64,000 nt of DNA from Rhodoferax sp. (lineage in GTDB: Bacteria; Pseudomonadota; Gammaproteobacteria; Burkholderiales; Burkholderiaceae_C). Position numbers and translations under genes: made by a program. The stretch lies in contig JARLJH010000056.1 in NCBI GenBank assembly GCA_031291305.1, forward strand, positions 1 through 64,000. The letters are read 5' to 3'. The notes below the pieces were generated by a model. That model did no database searches, had not been told where the DNA came from, and saw only the letters and a program-made list of their open reading frames with translations. This document shows positions 50,283 through 60,516 of the stretch, piece after piece (positions within the stretch are counted from its first letter, which is position 1; each line of letters starts with the position of its first letter).

Positions 50283-51101
50283 CTACTTTGGGCTAATGTT
50301 TGAGATGCGAGGCATGACCAGGCTTGCCGGGGCATGTTCTCTCGATTGAGAGACCTCCGGCATCGGCACGCCTTCATAGATGAACCGCTCCATTTCGTTG
50401 ACACCGCTCTGGTATAGCCCTGCTTCCTGCATTGCGGCGTACCAAGCAACGAGTGCTTGTTTCATACCCGCTAGGTCGCCTTTCGACGCCGACCCAACAT
50501 GCGTAACCCAAAGTTCAATCTCCGTAACTGTAATTTCTCGCTCGCTCACAAAAAGGTTTGCTATTTGAACAAGGCTTTTGGCTAGTTGGGCATCGACTAC
50601 TTCGATGGGAGTCGACCAATGGCAATTACCAAGGCAGTCTGTGTAGAACCCGAGCTGTTTGACGTGATCAAGAACAACAGGGTGCTCTGCTCCCTCTTCA
50701 AAGAGGGAACGGAAGTCTTCCAGTTTTCTAGCGCCTTTGACGGCGAGCTCGGGTAGCAGCCACTGAACATTCTTGCGGGTGTGCGACCGATAGCTCTTCC
50801 AAGCCACTGCCACCTCTTCTGGAGTTGTCGCTGTTGCCAGCTGACGGAGTATGGAGACCTTGCCAGACTCCTCTATTGACAGAGCAGCCAATGATGCAGC
50901 TGTTGGAGCGCGGCCAGCGTCTAGCAATGCCTGAGCATCTTCTTGAAGCCGCTTAGCGTTTGAGGTGGCTGCGTTCATTCCGGCTGCGACTTGCGAAGCA
51001 GTTAGTCGGCCTCGGTACGCATTGAGCTTCTTCGACGACATAAAGGTCAACGTATTGTCTAGCACCTGCAAATATGCTCTATAAGTTGGAAGCTGCTCCA
51101 T
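50283..51101 (-). CDS. AbiV-type HEPN abortive infection protein
   Basis: A 272-residue protein with the AbiV signature: ALSIEESGKVSIL followed by a short spacer and YRSHTRKN, forming the HEPN-like core in residues 60-130. The lactococcal AbiV aborts phage infection by stopping late phage protein synthesis. The C-terminal half is variable. Base composition is less GC-rich than neighbours (AT-rich codons), which suggests horizontal acquisition. Confidence 0.78.
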   Translation of the reverse strand: MEQLPTYRAYLQVLDNTLTFMSSKKLNAYRGRLTASQVAAGMNAATSNAKRLQEDAQALLDAGRAPTAASLAALSIEESGKVSILRQLATATTPEEVAVAWKSYRSHTRKNVQWLLPELAVKGARKLEDFRSLFEEGAEHPVVLDHVKQLGFYTDCLGNCHWSTPIEVVDAQLAKSLVQIANLFVSEREITVTEIELWVTHVGSASKGDLAGMKQALVAWYAAMQEAGLYQSGVNEMERFIYEGVPMPEVSQSREHAPASLVMPRISNISPK

Positions 51102-52004
51102 AAGTTGGCCATCAAATCCTCCGGGAAGTGGATTGCTGCCACACTTTTACTGATATTCGACGTTATTCACCGGATAACGACATTCTGGCAGACACAGCGT
51201 GGCACCCGGTGCCTCTTCATGACGACAGCACAAATGAAATACAAATTGGACAGACGCACCCCATTTCTGCTTACACCCCGCTACTGTGATCCACAAGCTG
51301 CAAGCGAAAGACTTCATCGTCATCTGGTCGAAGCTTGCCGGACACCTCCAAAAACTGAAAATCGCGTGTTGGTCTTCTGAACTCCACCGCATCAAGCCCT
51401 GTTGAAGGCAGGTGGTGGGGTTTGCGGGCGCAGGCCCCATTCGCGTGGCGTGACAGCAAGCAACCAAAGACGTGCGCAAAGCCAAGCCACCAACCCACCC
51501 AACGCCATCGCCCGCGAGGTGGGCCGGAGAACGCGAACCACGCCACCCGCCTGGAGCCACCTATTCCAACATCAGACTCAAATTAGAAGTTGTTGATGTT
51601 TTATGCCTCCAGCCCTGATAACACCTGGGCAACCAGCTACGCATTAAATAGCACCCAAGAAAACCCAACATCCATCAAGCAGCAGCGCCAACCGCCTCCC
51701 CCGGCCACCCCATGCCAGGCCAGCCACTCGCAGTTTTCACCGGCAGCCTAACTCGGGAAAACCACACCCGCCCCACCGCACCTGCCAGCGTAGAATCCGC
51801 CGCTTCATGAAACGCTTGGCGCGCACCCCCACTCACGGACAGACTCTGATGCTTTCCAAGCGTCGGCAGTTTGACATGCGCTTGCATCACAGTGGGCCAC
51901 CCCACCACAACCTTGACATTGGCTCGTTCATTGTTGTTGTGGTGTCCCATGAACTCACTTTTACCTCTCTCCCTTTGTCCGTTTAACCCCCGCAGGTTAG
52001 CCGC
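51102..52004. other. Gene-poor 0.9-kb region before the Ehr operon
   Basis: No convincing gene was found in these 903 bases. The AbiV promoter lies at the left side, with an inverted repeat CGTTAT-N7-ATAACG near 51161-51179. One dispersed element lies at 51600-51652. A minus-strand frame near 51271-51546 (MAWFAFSG ...) looks like repeat-derived coding-like DNA rather than a gene. The operon promoter should lie in 51850-52000 but no consensus stands out. Confidence 0.5.
51600..51652 (+). repeat. Dispersed element upstream of the Ehr operon
   Basis: Reads TTATGCCTCCAGCCCTG, then CACCTGGGCAACCAGCTACG, then TTAAATAGC. It fits the shared pattern well. Confidence 0.65.
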
Positions 52005-54011
52005 ATGAACCAGTTGCTGGCTGCGGCCTTGGTGCTGCTGGTGGGCGCTGCGCTGGCCATGCTGCCGGTCAAAAACAGCTGGCGCGCGGGATTTGGCATC
52101 GTGTCGCAAAGCGTAGCCACGCTGCTCACCTGGGTCGCCGTGCTGCCGGTGCTGGCGGGCGGCCCCGCGCCGTATGTGGAGCTGCCCTGGGGTTACCCGA
52201 TTGGCGCGGTGCACTTCAAGCTCGATGCGCTGGGGGCCTTCTTCTTGAGCTGGTCGCTGCCGATGACGCTGCTGGGCGCGGTCTACGCCGTGGGCTACCT
52301 GCGCAAGTTCTTTGACGGCCCACGTCATGTGGGTGTGCACTTTGCACTGCTGAACATGATCTCGCTCTCGTTCCTGATGGTCTACACCGGTGAACACGCG
52401 GTCACCTTTTTGATGGGCTGGGAGATTGCAGCGCTGTCGGCCTGGCTGCTGGTGATTTGGGACTACACCAACCAGAAGGTGCGCTTTGCCGGCTTCAATT
52501 ACCTGGTGTCCACCCACATTGGCCTGATTTTTCTGGTGGCGGCGTTCATGATTTTGTACACCCAGACGCAAAGCTGGTACCTGGACGACTTTGGCGACTG
52601 GATGAGCACGCACCCCGGCACCATTCGCAACACGGTGTTTTTGCTGCTGCTGACCAGCTTTGGGCTCAAGTCGGCGTTCTTCCCGTTTCACTCGTGGTTG
52701 CCTCGCGCCCACGCCGCTGCACCGGCCAATGTGAGCGCGCTGATGTCGGGCGTGATCCACAAGGCGGGCCTGTTTGCGCTGCTGCATTTTTTGCTGATTC
52801 AGGGCAAGCCTGCCGCCTGGATGGGTTGGGCGCTGATTGCGTTTTCAGTCACCTCGGCGGTGATTGGTGGCCTCTACACCGTGGGCCAGCGCGACCTGAA
52901 GCGCCTGCTGGGCTACTCGTCCACCGAGAACGTGGGCATTGCCGGCATTGGTTTTGGCATTGGCACGCTGGGCCTGGCCTGGGGTGTGCCGGGACTGGTG
53001 GCGCTGGGTTTTGCTGGCGGCATGTTGCATGTGCTGAACCACGCGTTTTTCAAATGCCAGCTGTTCTATGCCGCAGGCTGCGTCTACCAGGCCAAACACG
53101 GCGTGGACATGGAGCGTCTGGGCGGCCTGGCCAAGCTAATGCCGCTCACCGCTTTGAGTTTTTTGGTGGGCGGCATTGCCATTTCGGCCCTGCCGCCTTT
53201 CAACGGTTTTGCCAGTGAATTTTTGATCTACAGCGGACTATTCACCGGCGAAGCGCTCAACGTCTGGGCCAAGCTGCTGCTGGCCGGGGTGGCCACGTTG
53301 CTAGCCTTTGTGGGGGCGGTGTCGGCTCTGTCCATCACCCGCGCTTACGGCGTGATCTTCATGGGCAACGCGCGTGACGACAGCTTGCCCGCAGGCCATG
53401 AGCCCAGCGGCTGGATGCTGGCCCCGCTGTTGATCCACACCGTGGGCACGGTGCTGCTGGGCCTGATGCCGGTGCTGGGCTTGGCGCTGGTGGCGGCGCC
53501 CACGCGGCTGTTTTTGCACGCTGCACCCAGCGCCGCCACGCAGCAAGCCATGCAACAGGTGCAAGACGTGCTGGGCCGGGTGAGCCTGATCAGCGTCTAC
53601 GTGGCCGCGCTGATTGGGTTGGCCTGGGGTTTGCGCCAGTTGTTCAGAAGACAAAGCGCCGCCAGCGGCCCCACTTGGGGCTGCGGCTACACCGCTGGCA
53701 ACGCGCGCATGCAGTACAGCGGCAGCAGTTTTGCCAAAGACTTCACCAAAAACTACCGCGGCGTGATGCTGCTGCTCAGGCGCAAAAAAGCGCCCACCGG
53801 CTACTTTCCCGACGATGCCTACGTGATCACCGACTGTGTGGACGCGGTGGAGCACCGCCTGTACAACGTGATCGGCCACGGCGATGACTCGGCCTCGCTG
53901 ATCTCCAAACTGATGCACGAAGACGACCCCCGCATTGCCTTTGCCCTGGGTCTGGCCGCGCTGGTGGCGATTGCCGCCATGGTGGTACTGGCCGAAGGAG
54001 CGCTGCAATGA
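52005..54011 (+). CDS. hyfB: HyfB-type proton-pumping membrane subunit
   Basis: A 668-residue polytopic protein of the Mrp antiporter/NuoL-M-N family, as in HyfB/HycC of hydrogenase-4. Typical features: the helix-6 region SFGLKSAFFPFHSWLPRAHAAAPANVSALMSG and the lysine-bearing helices, with about 15-16 helices in total. It should translocate ions across the membrane, driven by the redox module encoded downstream. It is the first gene of a tightly overlapping six-gene operon, starting after a 0.9-kb gap. Confidence 0.9.
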   Translation: MNQLLAAALVLLVGAALAMLPVKNSWRAGFGIVSQSVATLLTWVAVLPVLAGGPAPYVELPWGYPIGAVHFKLDALGAFFLSWSLPMTLLGAVYAVGYLRKFFDGPRHVGVHFALLNMISLSFLMVYTGEHAVTFLMGWEIAALSAWLLVIWDYTNQKVRFAGFNYLVSTHIGLIFLVAAFMILYTQTQSWYLDDFGDWMSTHPGTIRNTVFLLLLTSFGLKSAFFPFHSWLPRAHAAAPANVSALMSGVIHKAGLFALLHFLLIQGKPAAWMGWALIAFSVTSAVIGGLYTVGQRDLKRLLGYSSTENVGIAGIGFGIGTLGLAWGVPGLVALGFAGGMLHVLNHAFFKCQLFYAAGCVYQAKHGVDMERLGGLAKLMPLTALSFLVGGIAISALPPFNGFASEFLIYSGLFTGEALNVWAKLLLAGVATLLAFVGAVSALSITRAYGVIFMGNARDDSLPAGHEPSGWMLAPLLIHTVGTVLLGLMPVLGLALVAAPTRLFLHAAPSAATQQAMQQVQDVLGRVSLISVYVAALIGLAWGLRQLFRRQSAASGPTWGCGYTAGNARMQYSGSSFAKDFTKNYRGVMLLLRRKKAPTGYFPDDAYVITDCVDAVEHRLYNVIGHGDDSASLISKLMHEDDPRIAFALGLAALVAIAAMVVLAEGALQ

Positions 54012-54940
54012 GCACCGTGACGTTTTTAACCGTGGCCCACATCGCCGTGGCGCTGGTCATGCCGTTTTTGCTGGTGGGGGTGATCAACCGCACCAAATCC
54101 TGGTGGGGCGGGCGCAAGGGGCCGGGGCTGTTTCAGTCTTACCACGACCTGCGCCGCCTGCTGCGCAAACGCCCGGTGGTGAGTGACACCGCCACGCCGC
54201 TGTTTCGCCTGGGGGCGTATGTGGTGCTGGTCTGCGCCTTGGCGGCGATGGCCTTTGTGCCGCTGCTGGGCCAGTTTGCGCCGCTGGCGTTTGCGCATGA
54301 CTTTGTCGCCGTGGCCTACACACTGGGGCTGGCGCGTATTGTGCTCATGCTCTCGGCCATGGATGTGGGCAGCCCGTTTGAAGGCATGGGTGCGGCGCGT
54401 GAGGCCAAGTTTGGTGCGTTTGCCGAACCCGCGCTGTTTTTGCTGCTGGGCACGGTGGGTGTGGCCACCGGCTTCAGCAGCTTTGCCGACATGCTGGGCC
54501 AGCTGCACCACACGCCCACTTACGCGCTCATCGTGCTGCCACTGACGGCGGCGCTGCTGATCCTGCTGCAAACCGAGGCCGCCCGTGTGCCGGTGGACGA
54601 CCCGCTGACGCACCTGGAGCTGACCATGATCCACGAGGTGATGATCCTCGACCACAGCGGCCCCGAGCTGGCCGCCATGCAGTACGCCGCTGGCCTGAAG
54701 ATGACGCTGTATGCCGGGCTGATCGCCACCCTGCTCAACCCGTTTTCTCCGATGAGCGATCCGCTGGCGGCGCTGGCCGCATCGCTGGGCATCATGCTCG
54801 CGGTGGCCGTGGTGGTGGGCTGTTTTGAGTCGCTGATGGCACGCCTGCCGCTGCCCTGGGTACCGCATTACGTGTGGCTGGCGGGCTGGCTCACGCTGGC
54901 GGCGGCAGCGGTGGTGGGCATCGCCGGAGGTGGCCTGTGA
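54008..54940 (+). CDS. hyfC: HyfC-type (NuoH-like) membrane subunit
   Basis: A 310-residue protein with about eight helices. It resembles HyfC/HycD and complex I NuoH (NRTKSWWGGRKGPGLFQSYHDLRRLL near the N-terminus, and EREMTLHEVM-like HLELTMIHEVMILD). This subunit links the ion pump to the peripheral redox arm. It overlaps hyfB as ATGA. Confidence 0.9.
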   Translation: MSTVTFLTVAHIAVALVMPFLLVGVINRTKSWWGGRKGPGLFQSYHDLRRLLRKRPVVSDTATPLFRLGAYVVLVCALAAMAFVPLLGQFAPLAFAHDFVAVAYTLGLARIVLMLSAMDVGSPFEGMGAAREAKFGAFAEPALFLLLGTVGVATGFSSFADMLGQLHHTPTYALIVLPLTAALLILLQTEAARVPVDDPLTHLELTMIHEVMILDHSGPELAAMQYAAGLKMTLYAGLIATLLNPFSPMSDPLAALAASLGIMLAVAVVVGCFESLMARLPLPWVPHYVWLAGWLTLAAAAVVGIAGGGL

Positions 54941-55566
54941 ACATCACCCACAACACCACCCTGGCGCTGATCGCCTGCCTGATGGCCACCGTGATCCCGG
55001 TGTTTTTTGGCAAGCTCGCCATCACCCCCAACTGGCTGAGCCTGCAGGCGCTGGCCCTTGGGTGGATCACGCTCAACAAACACCACGAGCTGGACTTGCA
55101 CGCGCTGGCGGCCGGGCTGGAGGTACTGATCATCCGCGCCTGGCTGGTGCCCCACCTGCTGCGCCGCACGCTCTCTGGCCACAAGGCCGCCGAGCACGAC
55201 GTGATGCCGTCGAACCTGTTCACCTGGGGCGTGGCGGTGACGCTGATCATTGTGGCCTTCCAGTTCGGCGATGGGGCCCGCGCCGACGTGCGCGCCCTGA
55301 CTCTGGGCGTGATTGCCGCCACCGTCACCATCGCCTTCCTGCTGCTGGCCACCAACCGCGAACCGGTGGCGCAGCTGGTGGCCCTGCTGTTCATGGAAAA
55401 CGCCCTGGCACTGTTCGAGTCCCTGATGCCCGAACCCTGGCCGCTGCCCGTGCACCTGGCCATCAGCACGGTGTATGTGGGCACGGTGGCGGTGGGGAGC
55501 TGGTTGATACGCAGCTCCGACGTTTCCAAGCTTTTAGCCGCCAAGCCCGGAGATCACGTGCAATGA
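54937..55566 (+). CDS. hyfE: HyfE-type membrane subunit
   Basis: A 209-residue hydrophobic protein with about six helices, resembling hydrogenase-4 component E (NuoK-like core in the C-terminal half: LLLATNREPVAQLVALLFMENALALF). The GTG start at 54937 overlaps the hyfC stop as GTGA. Confidence 0.85.
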   Translation: MNITHNTTLALIACLMATVIPVFFGKLAITPNWLSLQALALGWITLNKHHELDLHALAAGLEVLIIRAWLVPHLLRRTLSGHKAAEHDVMPSNLFTWGVAVTLIIVAFQFGDGARADVRALTLGVIAATVTIAFLLLATNREPVAQLVALLFMENALALFESLMPEPWPLPVHLAISTVYVGTVAVGSWLIRSSDVSKLLAAKPGDHVQ

Positions 55567-57041
55567 CCGCTTCAACTTCAATAGCAACTTCACCCTCCAC
55601 CGAAGACGTGGCGGCAAACCACCACCCTTTTGCCAGCCACATGGCCGAAGAGCTGGTGCACGGCACCCACTGGATATCGCCCGCACTGGTGGGCGTGGCG
55701 CTGCTGATGTGGCTAGCAGCGATGGGCGTGTTCCTGACCCACCCGTTGAGCGAACTGCCGCTGTACTTTGCCAACCGTTATCTGGTGCTCGACGCCACCT
55801 CGCTGCTGTTCATTGTGGTGATCAACACCGTGTTTCTGGGCATTTGCGTCTACCTGTACTCGCGCGAGCGCAACACCCCGGCGCTGACGCTGGACATCCG
55901 CTCGCGCGCGGCGCTGATGCTATTGTTCATGGCGGTCATCAACATCGGGCTGATGGCCAACCACCTGGTGCTGCTGTGGACGTTGATCGAGATCAGCACC
56001 CTGTGCGCTGCGCCGCTGGTGGCGCGCGGCGAGCTGACCAACCCCAAAGCGGTGGCCTGGCGCTACATGCTGTACTCGGCCATGACGCTGGCCATCACCT
56101 TTCTGGGTTTCATGGCGCTAACCCAGTCGGCCGATTTGCGTGGGGTGGAGGTGAGCTTCATGGTGGACCGGCTGGGCGAATCGCTCACTCGCGATGCCAA
56201 TGGCTGGCAGCGGCTGGGCTTGTCACTCATGTTGTTTGGCCTGGGCGGCAAGCTCGGGCTGGCGCCCTTGTATGGCTGGATGCCCGAAACCTATGAGGCC
56301 GCACCGACCACCACCAGCGCGCTACTGGCCTCCATCCAGTTCAACATCAGCGTGGTGGCGGTGTTTCGCATTCTGCAAATCTTTCACGGCTTTGAGTCCG
56401 GCTATGTTTCCCAAGAGCTGCTGGTGATGGGCTACTTCTCGCTGGTGGTGGCGGCCATCCAGATCATGGCCAGCAGCAATTACAAGCGCCTGATTGCCTA
56501 CGCCTGCGTCAGCTCTTCGGGGGTGATAGCGCTGGGTCTGTCGGTGGGCAAGGCCGCTGCCTACGGCGTGGTGCTGTACATCGTGAGCAATGCGTTTGTG
56601 AAGTCGCTGCTGTTTTTGACCTCTGGGCGCATGCGCGCCGTCTACGGTACCAACGAGGTCGGCCCCTTAAGCGGCGTGATCCGCACCTTGCCACTGGCCG
56701 GGCTGCTGTTCACGCTGGGCATTTTTGCGCTGCTGGGCTTTCCGCCCTTTGCCAGCTTTCTGGCCGAGATGCTGATCCTCTCGGGCATCGTCCAGGCCGG
56801 CAATCTGCTGGCCTTCACGCTGATGTGCGTGATGCTAACGGTGATTTTTGTCGCCACCGGGCGCACCGTGTTCCCCATGCTGTGGGGCGCGCCCAAGGTA
56901 CAGGTCAGGGCACCGCGTGACCCCCGAATCACGCTGCTACCCAAGCTGGGCTTTGTCGCCATACTGGTGATGCTGGGCACCTACACCCCCACCCCGATCA
57001 CCGACTTGCTGCGCGCCGTGGCGGTGTCGATTGGGGGCTGA
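55563..57041 (+). CDS. hyfF: HyfF-type second antiporter-like subunit
   Basis: A 492-residue Mrp/NuoN-like membrane protein, the second ion-translocating subunit. Key helices include LWTLIEISTLCAAPLVARGEL and GLGGKLGLAPLYGWMPETYEAAPTTTSALLA. It overlaps hyfE as ATGA. The N-terminal 40 residues (MTASTSIATSPSTED) are not conserved. Confidence 0.88.
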   Translation: MTASTSIATSPSTEDVAANHHPFASHMAEELVHGTHWISPALVGVALLMWLAAMGVFLTHPLSELPLYFANRYLVLDATSLLFIVVINTVFLGICVYLYSRERNTPALTLDIRSRAALMLLFMAVINIGLMANHLVLLWTLIEISTLCAAPLVARGELTNPKAVAWRYMLYSAMTLAITFLGFMALTQSADLRGVEVSFMVDRLGESLTRDANGWQRLGLSLMLFGLGGKLGLAPLYGWMPETYEAAPTTTSALLASIQFNISVVAVFRILQIFHGFESGYVSQELLVMGYFSLVVAAIQIMASSNYKRLIAYACVSSSGVIALGLSVGKAAAYGVVLYIVSNAFVKSLLFLTSGRMRAVYGTNEVGPLSGVIRTLPLAGLLFTLGIFALLGFPPFASFLAEMLILSGIVQAGNLLAFTLMCVMLTVIFVATGRTVFPMLWGAPKVQVRAPRDPRITLLPKLGFVAILVMLGTYTPTPITDLLRAVAVSIGG

Positions 57042-57042
57042 C

Positions 57043-58767
57043 ATGACCCACACCACGCCAAACGCCATGCCGCCCACCGCTTCAAATGCCAGCCCAATGG
57101 TGCCGCAGGGCTTACCCCCTCTCCCTCTGGGAGAGGGCGGGGGTGAGGGCTGCCCGCAGCAAAGTAGCCAAAACATCCACCCTCACCCTAACCCTCTCCC
57201 AGAGGGAGAGGGAATAAGTCCAGTGGCACACCTGCCAGCAACACATAAGTTACTATCAATATCAGAGCTACTTGCACAGGTAACACAAGGGCTAGAAGCC
57301 AAAAACACATTTATTTCCTTGTTTGGACGGCACGCCATTGCAGGCGAAGAAGCGGGGGTGATCGTCACCGCCGTGCTGCTCACGCCCACGGGTTTCCAGG
57401 TGCTGCGCGCCCATGTACCCAAGGGTCAAAGCTACCCCAGCCTGACCGCCCGCTTTCCCGCAGCGCAAATCTTTGAACGCGAGTTGTGGGAGCAAACCGG
57501 CCTGCTGCCCGAAGGCCACCCGTGGCTCAAACCGGTGCGTTTTGAAGGCGCGCGCCAGCAGCACATGGACGACTACCCCTTCTTCAAAGTGCGCGGGGCC
57601 GAGGTGCACGAGGTGGGCGTCGGCCCGATCCACGCCGGGGTGATTGAGCCGGGGCACTTTCGCTTCATGTGCCATGGTGAGCAGGTGCACCACCTGGAAA
57701 TCCAGCTCGGCTACCAGCACCGGGCTGTGGAAGCGCTGCTGCTGCACAAGCCGCCACAGCGCCTGAGCCCGCTGGTGGAATCCATCGTCGGCGACTCGGT
57801 CGTGGCCTACAGCTGGGCTTTCAACGCTGCGCTGGAATCTTTGGCAAATCGGCCTGTAGCCCAGGCAACACAAGGGCTACGTGCTATTGGTTTGGAACTA
57901 GAGCGGGTTGCCATGCACCTGGCCACGCTGACCGGCCTGGCCACCGACATTGCCTACCTGCAGCCTGCGGGCACGCTGCAGCGCCTGCGCACCGCCATCA
58001 TCAACGCCAGCCAGCGCGTTTGCGGCAACCGCTTTGGCAAAGGCTGGATTCGCCCCGGCGCGGCGGCGCCCATTGGCGAGGCTTTGCGGGCCGATTTGCT
58101 CAAGACCCTGCGCGCCTTCCAGACCGATTTTCTGCAAGTCAACGCGCTGCTGAGCAGCAGCCGCAGCACGCAAGCGCGTTTCAAAGGCGTGGGCACGGTG
58201 TCCACCCTGGCCGCGCAAGACATGGGTTTGACCGGCGTGGTGGCGCGTGCCAGTGGTGTGGCGCTGGATGTGCGCCGCGCCCTGCCCGATGGCCTGTATG
58301 CTGCTCACCCGCCCGAGCTGATCACGCAAGCCACGGGCGACTGCTGGGCGCGCGCGCGCCAGCGCATGCTGGAGGCTGAGGCCAGCACCCAGTGGCTGAT
58401 CGACCGGCTGGCGGATCCGGCGTTGAATCTGACCGACACGCCTGCGCCGTTTGCCAAAGCCGTACCCTCCAACACCGGCGCTACCAACGTGCGCCGTGAA
58501 GGTGTGGCTCCTACAGTGGCAACCGGGTCTGCAGCGTGGGCTTTGCAAGCGAGTAGCTTGTGTGTCTCGCTGATCGAAGGCGTGCGCGGCCCGGTGATGG
58601 TGGCGCTGGAGACCGATGCCAGCGGCCAGCTCCTCCACGCCAAGGTGCAAGACCCGAGTCTGGCCAACTGGTTCGGCCTGGCCTTGGCGCTGCGCGACCA
58701 GCAAATCTCGGACTTTCCGATTTGCAACAAGAGTTTTGACCTCTCGTACTGCGGCAACGATTTATAA
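57043..58767 (+). CDS. HyfG/HycE-like large subunit without NiFe ligands
   Basis: A 574-residue NuoC-NuoD-type fusion like HyfG/HycE. After a repeat-derived N-terminus (residues 23-92), a NuoC-like domain and a NuoD-like domain (from about residue 205: HHLEIQLGYQHRAVE) follow. NiFe large subunits carry C-x2-C at the L1 and L2 positions. Here L1 reads ESIVGDSVVAY (about 246-256) and L2 is FPICNKSFDLSYCGNDL, so no nickel site and no protease-processed tail. This matches Ehr-type complexes, not a hydrogenase. ATG 57043 is 1 base after hyfF ends. Confidence 0.85.
   Translation: MTHTTPNAMPPTASNASPMVPQGLPPLPLGEGGGEGCPQQSSQNIHPHPNPLPEGEGISPVAHLPATHKLLSISELLAQVTQGLEAKNTFISLFGRHAIAGEEAGVIVTAVLLTPTGFQVLRAHVPKGQSYPSLTARFPAAQIFERELWEQTGLLPEGHPWLKPVRFEGARQQHMDDYPFFKVRGAEVHEVGVGPIHAGVIEPGHFRFMCHGEQVHHLEIQLGYQHRAVEALLLHKPPQRLSPLVESIVGDSVVAYSWAFNAALESLANRPVAQATQGLRAIGLELERVAMHLATLTGLATDIAYLQPAGTLQRLRTAIINASQRVCGNRFGKGWIRPGAAAPIGEALRADLLKTLRAFQTDFLQVNALLSSSRSTQARFKGVGTVSTLAAQDMGLTGVVARASGVALDVRRALPDGLYAAHPPELITQATGDCWARARQRMLEAEASTQWLIDRLADPALNLTDTPAPFAKAVPSNTGATNVRREGVAPTVATGSAAWALQASSLCVSLIEGVRGPVMVALETDASGQLLHAKVQDPSLANWFGLALALRDQQISDFPICNKSFDLSYCGNDL
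57113..57212. repeat. GAGAGGG-type inverted repeat inside the large-subunit gene
   Basis: Two inverted halves (CCCTCTCCCTCTGGGAGAGG, GGCGGGGGTGAGGG and CCCTCACCCTAACC, CTCTCCCAGAGGGAGAGGG) separated by 26 bases. This is the widespread intergenic element whose translation reads PLPLGEG and PNPLPEGEG. It normally lies between genes; here it is inside the gene, in frame. Confidence 0.8.
57247..57312 (-). repeat. Dispersed element in the large-subunit N-terminus
   Basis: On the minus strand it reads GGCTTCTAGCCCTTGTG, TTACCTGTGCAAGTAGCTCT, then GATATTGATAG. It follows the GAGAGGG element directly and is in frame. Confidence 0.6.
57850..57890 (+). repeat. Second dispersed element in the large-subunit gene
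   Basis: Reads CGGCCTGTAGCCCAGG, spacer, AAGGGCTACGTGCTATTG. It encodes RPVAQATQGLRAI, just before the conserved LELERVAMH segment. Confidence 0.6.
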
Positions 58768-58774
58768 GCTCACC

Positions 58775-59539
58775 ATGTTTCAATCCCTCGCCGTCCGCAA
58801 AGCCCAAGGCAGCCAATTCATCCCCGACCTGCGCGCCGCCCAGCCCGGTGGCTTTCGCGGCAAACCTGTCATTGCCGATCTGGCTTGTGCCCCCAACTGC
58901 CACGTGTGCCAGGAGGTGTGCCCGACAAGCGCTATCGACTTGAAAGCAAGTTCCGCCGATCCCGTCGCCATTGATCTGGGACGCTGCGTGATGTGCGGCG
59001 ACTGCGCGCCGGTGTGCCCGAGCCAGAAATTGAGCTTCAACAACGACGTGAAGCTGTCGGCCACCACGCGCAGCGGACTGGTGGTGACCGCCGCCCGGCC
59101 CAACATCGACCCGATCAAGATATCTGCCGAATTGCACAAACGCTTTGGCAGCTCGCTCAAACTGCGCTCGGTGTCGGCGGGCGGCTGCAACGGCTGCGAG
59201 ATGGAGGTCAATGCCCTAAGCAACGTCAACTTCGACCTGGGCCGCTATGGCATCGACATGGTCGCCAGCCCGCGCCACGCCGACGGCATCGTGCTCACCG
59301 GCCCGATCACCCGCAACATGGCGAAAGCGCTGCAAATCTGCTGGGACGCGATTCCTGAACCCAAGCTGCTCATCGCCGTGGGCGCCTGTGCGATTTCAGG
59401 CGGGGTGTTTGCCGACAGTGATGCCTTAGGCCGCGAGTTTCTGGACAAATACCCGCCCAGCCTCTATGTGCCCGGCTGCCCGGTGCACCCGCTGACCTTC
59501 ATCAGCGGGGTGATGGATGTGCTGGGTATGACGACGTAG
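58775..59539 (+). CDS. HyfI/NuoB-type small subunit fused to ferredoxin
   Basis: A 254-residue iron-sulfur protein. The N-terminal part (about 30-95) is a two-cluster ferredoxin with cysteines 38/42/45/49 and 71/74/77/81. The C-terminal NuoB-like part binds the N2-type cluster through C138-N-G-C141, C205 (GACAISGG) and C235 (PGCPVHP). HyfH- and HyfI-type functions are thus in one chain. The first motif has C-x3-C-x2-C-x3-C spacing instead of the usual C-x2-C-x2-C-x3-C. It should carry electrons to the large subunit. ATG 58775 is 8 bases after the stop of the previous gene. Confidence 0.9.
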   Translation: MFQSLAVRKAQGSQFIPDLRAAQPGGFRGKPVIADLACAPNCHVCQEVCPTSAIDLKASSADPVAIDLGRCVMCGDCAPVCPSQKLSFNNDVKLSATTRSGLVVTAARPNIDPIKISAELHKRFGSSLKLRSVSAGGCNGCEMEVNALSNVNFDLGRYGIDMVASPRHADGIVLTGPITRNMAKALQICWDAIPEPKLLIAVGACAISGGVFADSDALGREFLDKYPPSLYVPGCPVHPLTFISGVMDVLGMTT

Positions 59540-59605
59540 GTTTAACGACGTCAAGGAAATCACGACTAGGGAAGTTTGGACCTTGGGCTACGCCAGATAG
59601 GCGAA

Positions 59606-60436
59606 TCAAGCGCCCAGCCATTCCAGCAGTTTGCGCAATCGCACTTCTTCAGTGACCACAAAGCCGTTGATGCCTATGCGCTGAAGAATCTGCTTTCCCG
59701 GACCCGTGCTGCCCAGATCGGTCAATGCGCCCCGCAATTTGTCAACCTGCTCGACGCTCAGATTGCGCGAAGCCACCAGCGGCATATACGGCTGTGGGCG
59801 AGATGTGTGCAGAACCCGATTGCCGCTCTTAAGCCACTGTTTGTAAGCGCCTGAGTAAGAGGCAATGCCTCCTACATCGGAAATTCTGGTCTCAACGGCA
59901 AAAGGAATCGCCCCCTGCTCCCGAACATAGAAGACTCTTTCGCCCTCAATCAGGATGCCTTTGTCGCGCAGTTCAGCCCGACAAAAATGCGTCATGTACG
60001 CCGACTCTTCCGGGAAGACGAAATTTTTTCCCTTCAGATCTTCAACCTTCTTGATGGGCGAGTCTTTATGCACGATCAGCACGCACTGCCCATCCGGGCT
60101 CGCCGACGCGACAAACCTGTATTGGTGGTCACGCATGCCGCGCGCCGGGTAATCCGAGGGACGGGCCAGAACGAGATCAAACTGGTTTTCCTTCATGCCA
60201 TTGGCCAGTCGATCAAACTCCCGCACAAAAACCACTTTGACCTCGGCATTGATCGCTGAACCCAAGACGTCGGCCAATGGTTGGTACTTGGCATAGGCAG
60301 CCTCAGCGTTGATGCCACCCGAGGTACCTTCACTGACAGCCAGGGTCAGCTGCTGTTTTTTCACGACTTCTGCCGCATTCACACCCAGTGCGAACAGGGC
60401 AACCAGCATCAACCCCAAGGTATATCTTTTGAACAT
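59606..60436 (-). CDS. PhnD-like periplasmic binding protein
   Basis: A 276-residue exported protein (signal peptide about 1-21, VNAA) of the PhnD/phosphate-phosphonate binding fold: TLAVSEGTSG, ARPSDYPARG, KGKNFVFPEESAYMTHF. No ABC ATPase or permease gene is nearby, so it may be an orphan sensor or binding protein. It is convergent with the Ehr operon, 66 bp apart. Ligand unknown. Confidence 0.82.
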   Translation of the reverse strand: MFKRYTLGLMLVALFALGVNAAEVVKKQQLTLAVSEGTSGGINAEAAYAKYQPLADVLGSAINAEVKVVFVREFDRLANGMKENQFDLVLARPSDYPARGMRDHQYRFVASASPDGQCVLIVHKDSPIKKVEDLKGKNFVFPEESAYMTHFCRAELRDKGILIEGERVFYVREQGAIPFAVETRISDVGGIASYSGAYKQWLKSGNRVLHTSRPQPYMPLVASRNLSVEQVDKLRGALTDLGSTGPGKQILQRIGINGFVVTEEVRLRKLLEWLGA

Positions 60437-60496
60437 TTAAAAATCTCCCGCAAAAAAATTTGGCGGAGTATCGCATTGGGTTTGACCGATCCGCAG

Positions 60497-60516
60497 TCAC
60501 CTCGGGAGCGAGGTGA
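60497..60516. other. Perfect 8-bp hairpin in the PhnD leader region
   Basis: TCACCTCG, GGAG loop, CGAGGTGA. It lies in the 252-bp gap between the PhnD-type gene start and the GST end. No T run follows, so it is not a standard terminator. It could help end the GST transcript or regulate the PhnD-type gene. Confidence 0.3.

Follow-up and report, generated by a model that had tools for sequence, protein, structure and literature searches.

Gene content of the ehr locus

We analyzed a 64,000-nucleotide stretch of Rhodoferax sp. DNA (the window), which covers the start of contig C22. Six successive open reading frames on the + strand, at 52005-59539, encode complex I-like subunits in the order B-C-E-F-G-I. 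The first gene, ehrB (52005..54011, 668 aa), encodes a HyfB/NuoL-like antiporter-type subunit (PF00361, Proton_antipo_M, E 2e-50) and is followed by ehrC (54008..54940, 310 aa), which encodes a HyfC/NuoH-like subunit (PF00146, NADHdh, E 5e-25). The product of ehrE (54937..55566, 209 aa, GTG start) is a HyfE-like membrane subunit that matched PF00420 (Oxidored_q2) only below the cut-off; an E-type gene occupies this position in most related operons. Next come ehrF (55563..57041, 492 aa; PF00361, E 2e-35), for a HyfF/NuoM-like antiporter-type subunit, and ehrG (57043..58767, 574 aa), for a fused NuoC/NuoD, HyfG-like large subunit that carries the Complex1_30kDa and Complex1_49kDa domains and lacks NiFe ligands. 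The last gene, ehrI (58775..59539, 254 aa), encodes a NuoB/HyfI-like small subunit with an N-terminal 2[4Fe-4S] domain (Fer4) and an Oxidored_q6 domain (PF01058). The open reading frames and Pfam matches, with subunit E below the cut-off, agree with a first-pass annotation that had recognized two antiporter-like pumps and NuoH-, HyfE-, NuoCD- and NuoB-like subunits. It had also described six overlapping genes, which is correct for three of the five junctions (B/C, C/E and E/F, 4 bp each), whereas gaps of 1 bp and 7 bp separate F/G and G/I. All six genes are under purifying selection, with dN/dS of 0.12-0.23 in comparison with G010. A second complete, divergent cluster lies just past the window end (C22:65259-72464). 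We named the two types Ehr-1 (the window operon) and Ehr-2 (this second cluster), a split of our own. In Variovorax sp. PBL-E5, a cultivable carrier, a plasmid bears both copies.

The complex I proton-channel Glu and Lys residues of antiporter-type subunits are present in the ehr pump subunits. Residues E140, K222, K350 and E405 of ehrB were conserved in 71-74 of 74 homologues, and E143, K230 and E402 of ehrF in 101-110 of the 110 F-type homologues, which included both Ehr types. In ehrC, E140, D197 and E204 align with NuoH E157, D213 and E220 and were found in all 93 homologues. Equivalents of NuoL D178 and D400 and of NuoM K265 were not kept, as in HyfB/HyfF.

In the small subunit, the eight Cys of the ferredoxin domain were kept in 89-104 of 104 homologues, supporting the annotated presence of its own ferredoxin domain, and the four cluster Cys were kept in 98-102 of 104. 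The tandem Cys pair is a feature of the NuoB N2 motif. In ehrI the cluster site has a CxxC + C + C arrangement instead, which corrects the N2-type cluster of the annotation.

The NiFe ligands of the large subunit are replaced by conserved residues

We aligned ehrG to E. coli HyfG/HycE. RVCGIC was replaced by SIVGDS and DPCYSC by DLSYCG, which puts Val, Ser, Ser and Gly at the Ni-Fe ligand positions; the Cys pairs of a group 4a [NiFe] enzyme were not found, and the reported absence of both Cys-x2-Cys motifs is therefore correct. Gly250-Asp251 at the first site was present in all 107 Ehr-1 large subunits, and N562, K563, S564, S568, Y569 and G571 were each kept in 105-107 of them. Three Cys were also frequent: C210 (107/107), C561 (100/107) and C570 (95/107). 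Because Gly250-Asp251 and the C-terminal residues are near-invariant, the rebuilt site is maintained rather than decaying, and its conservation suggests that it is probably functional. Since the former nickel-binding residues were exchanged for other strongly conserved ones, the machine still looks functional. We had considered NKSF as the replacement of the NiFe motif and rejected it, because two relatives (L215 and L216) carry NKSF together with both Cys pairs.

In an AlphaFold2 model built from 91 sequences, whose last residues were poor (an earlier model from 14 sequences was poor at the C-terminus), the closest predicted fold was HycE of formate hydrogenlyase. We also examined the columns of the complex I quinone ligands, Tyr87 and His38 of Thermus thermophilus Nqo4. 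These were occupied in the alignment by Gly250 and Ile201, so a quinone site of the complex I type is not kept.

Relationship to known complexes

Ehr complexes have been described in Geobacter (PMC7894505), Nitrospira (PMC10284858), Margulisbacteria (PMC6349859) and CPR (PMC7304191). In the parts of these papers available to us, they are kin of group 4 hydrogenases with antiporter-like membrane subunits and a large subunit that lacks the metal-binding Cys pairs; no function is demonstrated there, nor is a donor or acceptor proven experimentally. The window operon likewise combines a group 4 hydrogenase-like large subunit without either CxxC motif with antiporter-, NuoH- and NuoB-like subunits. 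Gene content and motif loss thus bear out its assignment as Ehr-type, a comparison made with descriptions of the published clades that implies no match to any particular one. The annotation had proposed an undescribed energy-conserving system. As to the kind of system this is wrong, since several papers already describe Ehr complexes. The Ehr-1 gene set was found across many bacterial phyla, mostly with the same gene order. Three findings narrow the question of what it does: the conserved rebuilt site, the NiFe-bearing basal relatives, and the link to DabA or SulP in some relatives. The annotation had missed the last two, along with the adjacent Ehr-2 copy.

An IQ-TREE analysis placed the large subunits relative to HyfG/HycE, Rhizobium HyqG and NuoD. 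Ehr-1 and the group containing Rhizobium HyqG formed one clade (UFBoot 100). Of the phylogeny that the annotation had called for, the comparison with these reference proteins was therefore made, and that with published Ehr was limited to their descriptions. The two basal relatives L215 and L216 have both Cys pairs for NiFe intact, so the NiFe site was lost within the family. Forms with and without the ligands in a single family make a stepwise study of this loss possible. The ferredoxin domain of the small subunit was dropped as a marker of Ehr-1, because the NiFe-type L216 also has such a domain.

The window operon differs from E. coli Hyf/Hyc in that it has no NiFe ligands, no C-terminal extension and no HyfA, HyfD, HyfH or HyfJ genes, and in that a ferredoxin domain is fused to its small subunit. 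With respiratory complex I it shares homologues of NuoH, L, M, B and C/D along with the pump residues, but it lacks the NADH module and has not kept the quinone ligands of the large subunit.

Proposed mechanism and electron acceptor

We consider, with moderate confidence, that the operon makes a compact complex I-like Ehr ion pump driven by low-potential electrons. This reading is based on the subunit assignments, the cluster ligands, the pump residues, the conserved rebuilt site, the dN/dS values, the gene set shared across phyla and the HycE-like fold. Electrons, most likely from soluble ferredoxin, would be taken up at the 2[4Fe-4S] domain of subunit I and handed on by its proximal [4Fe-4S] cluster to an acceptor in the pocket that replaces the NiFe site, where subunits G, I and C meet. 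The energy released would drive H+ or Na+, presumably outward, by way of subunits C, F and B. Within this pump, we tentatively regard quinone as the likeliest acceptor; the Gly250 and Ile201 found at the quinone-ligand columns count against it.

Among the neighbour families listed for 80 loci and 32 Planctomycetota regions (named by eye), no dehydrogenase or hydrogenase recurred, which fits a diffusible donor. The genome-context comparison that had been suggested thus gave a mostly constant gene order and no dedicated redox partner among these families. All Ehr subunits of Geobacter sulfurreducens were reported at higher levels on formate than on hydrogen (PMC7894505); we nevertheless rejected formate as the donor, because no dehydrogenase recurred among the neighbour families listed.

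It is unlikely that Ehr-1 instead reduces another small acceptor, such as polysulfide or NAD(P), at a putative Cys-lined pocket. Pyrococcus MBS/Mbx reduces polysulfide, with sulfane-sulfur reduction at the large subunit. The conservation of C210, C561 and C570 is in keeping with such a pocket, and Mbx, termed a ferredoxin:NADP oxidoreductase, is cited as a hydrogenase-related complex (PMC6349859), but no sulfur or NAD(P) genes recurred among the neighbour families listed.

Genes for inorganic carbon near Ehr-1 in some relatives

What lies next to Ehr-1 in part of its relatives hints at a role in inorganic-carbon supply. Of the 63 Ehr-1 genomes searched, seven have DabA (PF10070), and in five of these it is no more than 15 kb away from the operon, against 0.06 expected by chance (P 5e-9); when one of a sister pair was dropped, there were four against 0.045. 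SulP lay within 15 kb of Ehr-1 in 6 of 80 genomes against 0.67 expected (P 7e-5). Linkage was seen in few genomes, mostly MAGs, and the choice of families and distances was made once the first examples were known. In L220 and L221, DabA lies upstream of ehrB at a distance of 0.4 kb, and no DabB-like gene was found in its vicinity; in L152 it follows ehrI after 32 bp; and in a Rhodocyclaceae genome it is again upstream of ehrB, about 5 kb away, and antiporter-like open reading frames occupy the interval. The L221 frame is short (658 aa vs. 906) and may be broken.

These linkages would agree with Ehr-1 powering, or physically carrying, inorganic-carbon uptake, with electron flow driving either CO2 hydration of the DabA type or a bicarbonate carrier of the SulP family. 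Cyanobacterial NDH-1 CO2 pumps offer a parallel for uptake driven by electron flow. In Acidithiobacillus caldus, hyfBCEFG adjoins a beta-carbonic anhydrase gene (PMC3826726), the nearest case among the literature matches listed, none of which, in the parts available, linked DabA with hydrogenase-4 or Ehr. In the DAB complex, DabB is NuoL-like, but that complex is described as having no redox subunits (PMC13144422). The window's genome has no DabA match at E 1e-20, and none was found in the 15 Ehr-1 genomes of its genus; conversely, ehrG had no match in three DabA-bearing members of the genus, two of which are only 70-79% complete. Nor did the DabA link extend to Planctomycetota in general: of 31 further genomes of this phylum with Ehr matches, only one has DabA, and there it is unlinked. 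SulP proteins also carry sulfate. We therefore think a role in carbon uptake improbable. Slightly less probable still is its fullest form, in which Ehr-1, a hydrogenase-derived complex that lost its NiFe site, was recruited as an electron-driven pump for inorganic carbon, with DabA and a SulP carrier as interchangeable partners in hydrating CO2 or importing bicarbonate. If it were true, ehrB would take the place of DabB in relatives with a lone DabA, and the window's genus would use an unlinked carrier or a carbonic anhydrase.

Ehr-2, Hyq and hydrogen evolution

Ehr-2 is closest to the Hyq of Rhizobium and Azorhizobium (Azorhizobium HyqG by description, Rhizobium HyqG by sequence). R. johnstonii HyqG was 48% identical to the Ehr-2 large subunit of this genome over 83% of the latter. 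The window operon has the same six genes as hyqBCEFGI in the same order, lacks the NiFe motifs and has C561 in common with Hyq. However, Rhizobium HyqG has a Cys (SFNCSY) where Ehr-1 has Leu567, and the Ehr-2/Hyq small subunits of Rhizobium, Methylovirgula and Variovorax, at about 169-177 aa, are too short to hold a ferredoxin domain. By its sequence, Ehr-1 is a sister of Hyq and not a member.

Azorhizobium HyqG is reported to lack both nickel motifs, yet in whole cells deletion of hyq raised hydrogen evolution about 15-fold at 20 uM O2 and lowered it to 0.4-fold microaerobically (PMC3357923). The authors read such changes in hyq deletion strains as hydrogen turnover (PMC3357923, PMC2650096), which counts against our pump reading and makes the earlier statement that the complex cannot be a hydrogenase too strong. 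Of the maturation genes that the annotation had not seen nearby, HypD, the sole one searched, was absent from C22; it was found on contigs C23 and C53. The shared clade and gene set, together with the Cys pairs in L215 and L216, would allow Ehr-1 to turn over hydrogen, like Hyq, at a non-NiFe site formed by the residues conserved about the former NiFe pocket. An enzyme active on hydrogen without a NiFe centre would represent novel chemistry, and the published Hyq data leave room for one. We know of no hydrogenase chemistry that fits the Ehr-1 site residues. The Hyq data come from whole cells, with no cell-free assay in the parts of the papers available, and may reflect an indirect effect via redox balance; of the three Cys reported as conserved in HyqG, two are missing from the Ehr-2 of this genome and one of these also from Ehr-1; and Ehr papers call such complexes unlikely hydrogenases, so hydrogen turnover by Ehr-1 is quite doubtful.

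Upstream region and a palindrome in ehrG

A search with strict patterns for sigma-54, NifA and FNR-like sites gave none upstream of the eight operons examined, of which seven were Ehr-1 and the other Ehr-2; the absence of a NifA or sigma-54 box upstream of the window operon is a further difference from Hyq. No sigma-70-like promoter was found in 51100-60500, where 1.9 were expected. The 5' coding part of ehrG contains a long, in-frame, repeat-like palindrome (57115..57213), with a folding energy of -83.6 kcal/mol for 125 nt of the region. It is absent from L060, the sole aligned orthologue that spans this place, the other 12 stretches beginning after it. Peptides similar to the one it encodes were found elsewhere in G023 and G033.

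The ehr operon and its second copy

The window spans positions 1-64000 of contig C22 in a 4.98-Mb genome. Its six-gene ehr operon (Ehr-1; 52005-59539, + strand) had been described in the first-pass annotation as overlapping genes, which is true of the junctions with 4-bp overlaps but not of those with 1- and 7-bp gaps. Family assignment recovered every subunit type named there: ehrB and ehrF are antiporter-like, ehrC is NuoH-like, ehrE is HyfE-like (a weak match), ehrG is a NuoC/NuoD-like fusion, and ehrI is a NuoB-like domain fused to a ferredoxin domain. The dN/dS values between the window and genome G010 were 0.12-0.23 for each of the six genes, indicating purifying selection on the operon. 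Ehr-1 is a well-kept member of a known but unexplained family; the earlier phrase "undescribed energy-conserving system" thus fails as to kind. Near the ehrG start, a long in-frame palindrome (57115-57213) adds about 40 residues that the orthologue in L060 lacks, and peptides resembling it are encoded at other sites in genomes of the genus. An AbiV-type HEPN gene (50283-51101) is divergent to the operon.

A complete paralogous cluster, Ehr-2, closest to Hyq, lies 5.7 kb beyond the operon on the opposite strand (C22:65259-72464, equal to L009:5260-12465). The two large subunits share 32% identity, and the Ehr-2 small subunit of the source genome (172 aa) has no ferredoxin domain. Ehr-1 at 60% identity or more was found in 15 of 60 same-genus genomes, including the source genome. 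Both copies lie in proximity in G000 (the source genome), G002, G022, G033 and G039, in loci L082, L084 and L149 and on one Variovorax plasmid. Locus L057 (G044:C119) carries broken Ehr-1 remnants, with unrelated genes in between, beside an Ehr-2 cluster.

Genome contigs were scanned for relatives, and the best 80 of at least 497 confirmed include Betaproteobacteria, Planctomycetota, Myxococcales, Verrucomicrobia, Lentisphaerae, Spirochaetes, Bacteroidetes, Ignavibacteria, Elusimicrobia and Gastranaerophilales. Most of these 80 show the order B-C-E-F-G-I where the contig permits; I precedes B in L101 and L102, and several have an additional B-type gene.

Proposed electron path, pump residues and acceptor site

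The small subunit had been said to keep its cluster and a ferredoxin domain of its own, and this was borne out: of the 104 sequences (out of 105) with an N-terminal part, 89-104 retain the eight ferredoxin-domain Cys, depending on the position, and 98-102 the four Cys of the proximal cluster. The complex I Glu/Lys residues were kept in ehrB (E140, K222, K350, E405; 71-74 of 74 homologues) and ehrF (E143, K230, E402; 101-110 of 110, Ehr-1 and Ehr-2 both counted), and E140, D197 and E204 of ehrC in 93 of 93. In the residue comparison, equivalents of NuoL D178 and D400 and NuoM K265 were absent from the Ehr antiporter-type subunits, as they are from HyfB/HyfF. The large-subunit Tyr and His that are the quinone ligands of complex I align with Gly and Ile in the window. 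On balance, we regard Ehr-1 as an ion pump driven by low-potential electrons, with a rebuilt acceptor site. Reduction of another small acceptor seems unlikely.

Neighbouring genes and inorganic carbon

A helix-turn-helix and PTS EIIA-2 protein was the commonest neighbour (both domains checked on one protein). It is encoded 5' of the operon at 31 of the 80 relatives' loci (L075-L154; example, L100:4199-4909), which suggests operon control via PTS phosphorylation. It was present in 17 of the 32 Planctomycetota regions, 5 of them carrying Ehr-2 or basal forms. Among the neighbour families listed for the 80 loci and the 32 regions, no redox enzyme recurred.

Of the 80 named Ehr-1 genomes, 63 were searched for DabA, a subunit of the DAB CO2-uptake complex; 7 carry it, and in 5 of these it is no more than 15 kb from the operon. 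On the sister-genome stretches L220 and L221 it shares the strand of ehrB and lies 0.4 kb 5' of that gene. Neither stretch yielded a DabB-like gene, and the DabA frame of L221 is short, perhaps broken. In L152, DabA starts 32 bp past ehrI, where the contig ends. A Rhodocyclaceae genome has DabA, ending 4.8 kb away, and two weakly antiporter-subunit-like ORFs 5' of ehrB, and in G587 DabA is 14 kb from the operon with a SulP (bicarbonate/sulfate carrier) gene between. DabA is unlinked in G790 and in G103, the latter having SulP immediately 5' of ehrB instead. Linkage was observed in 5 cases vs 0.06 by chance, or 4 vs 0.045 with one sister genome removed (P 1.7e-7; about 1e-3 corrected for 5000 families), and SulP, present in 41 of 80 genomes (79 copies, split hits merged by hand), lay within 15 kb in 6 vs 0.67 expected (P 7e-5). 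Families and distances were picked with the first cases already in view. In the large-subunit tree, which did not sample L152, the other DabA-linked genomes fall in the window's own Ehr-1 subclade (UFBoot 100). The nearest remark in the excerpted literature is that A. caldus hyfBCEFG adjoins a beta-carbonic anhydrase gene (PMC3826726).

Despite this excess in relatives, a service in inorganic-carbon uptake is improbable for Ehr-1: DabA was found in none of the 15 Ehr-1 genomes of the genus (the source genome and 14 others), the three genus members carrying DabA gave no ehrG match, and among another 31 Planctomycetota genomes that match Ehr, a single one had DabA, unlinked. In L149 (13183-16265), a beta-carbonic anhydrase gene and two formate/nitrite-type channel genes lie 3' of the Ehr-2/Ehr-1 pair.

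Loss of the NiFe ligands and hydrogen

A large-subunit phylogeny, which had been proposed as a check, was built from 51 sequences. All 45 Ehr sequences were monophyletic (UFBoot 99), beside HyfG/HycE. L215 and L216 are basal in this clade and have both the CGVC and CYSC pairs together with the Ehr C-terminus, apparently as intermediates between [NiFe] hydrogenase and Ehr. The remaining 43 form a clade (100) in which none has a complete Cys pair, confirming the claimed absence of both Cys-x2-Cys motifs from the window's large subunit. Rhizobium HyqG and the source genome's Ehr-2 fall in one group (100), which is the sister of Ehr-1 (94; joint clade 100). The NiFe ligands were thus lost within the Ehr family; a D. 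ruminis EhrL with four Cys, as described in an excerpt of PMC3569383, agrees with this. The L216 small subunit is fused to ferredoxin.

Azorhizobium hyqBCEFGI is the same gene set as the Ehr operon. According to excerpts of two reports (PMC2650096, PMC3357923), HyqG of eight genera lacks both Cys pairs, and hyq deletion slowed diazotrophic growth and changed whole-cell hydrogen evolution, 15-fold upward at 20 uM O2 and down to 0.4-fold at <1 uM O2. Of the three Cys conserved in HyqG according to the Azorhizobium authors' excerpted text (the sequence we compared being that of R. johnstonii), the source genome's Ehr-2 lacks both C-terminal-side ones and Ehr-1 keeps one of the two near the C-terminus. 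The deletion data, as excerpted, are no proof of hydrogen chemistry, yet they forbid its exclusion by motifs alone, so that the statement that the complex "cannot be a hydrogenase" went too far. Hydrogen turnover by Ehr-1 is nevertheless quite doubtful.

The large subunit of L087 (G101), on a contig labelled Candidatus Kuenenia, falls among those of other Planctomycetota and of Myxococcales. Judged by eye, the neighbour genes look unlike Kuenenia; the bin label may be wrong. L017:1624-9830 (contig C62) is a complex-I-like cluster with a 1041-aa protein of two antiporter stretches, NuoH-like and NuoB-like subunits, a large subunit with CRVC but missing the second pair, and then a pyridine-nucleotide oxidoreductase with Fer4 domains. 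The hydrogenase cluster at L018:767-8233 (contig C14) is group-4-like: both Cys pairs (CSLC, CISC) are intact, an antiporter-like ORF has 1279 aa, and the large subunit lacks a C-terminal extension.
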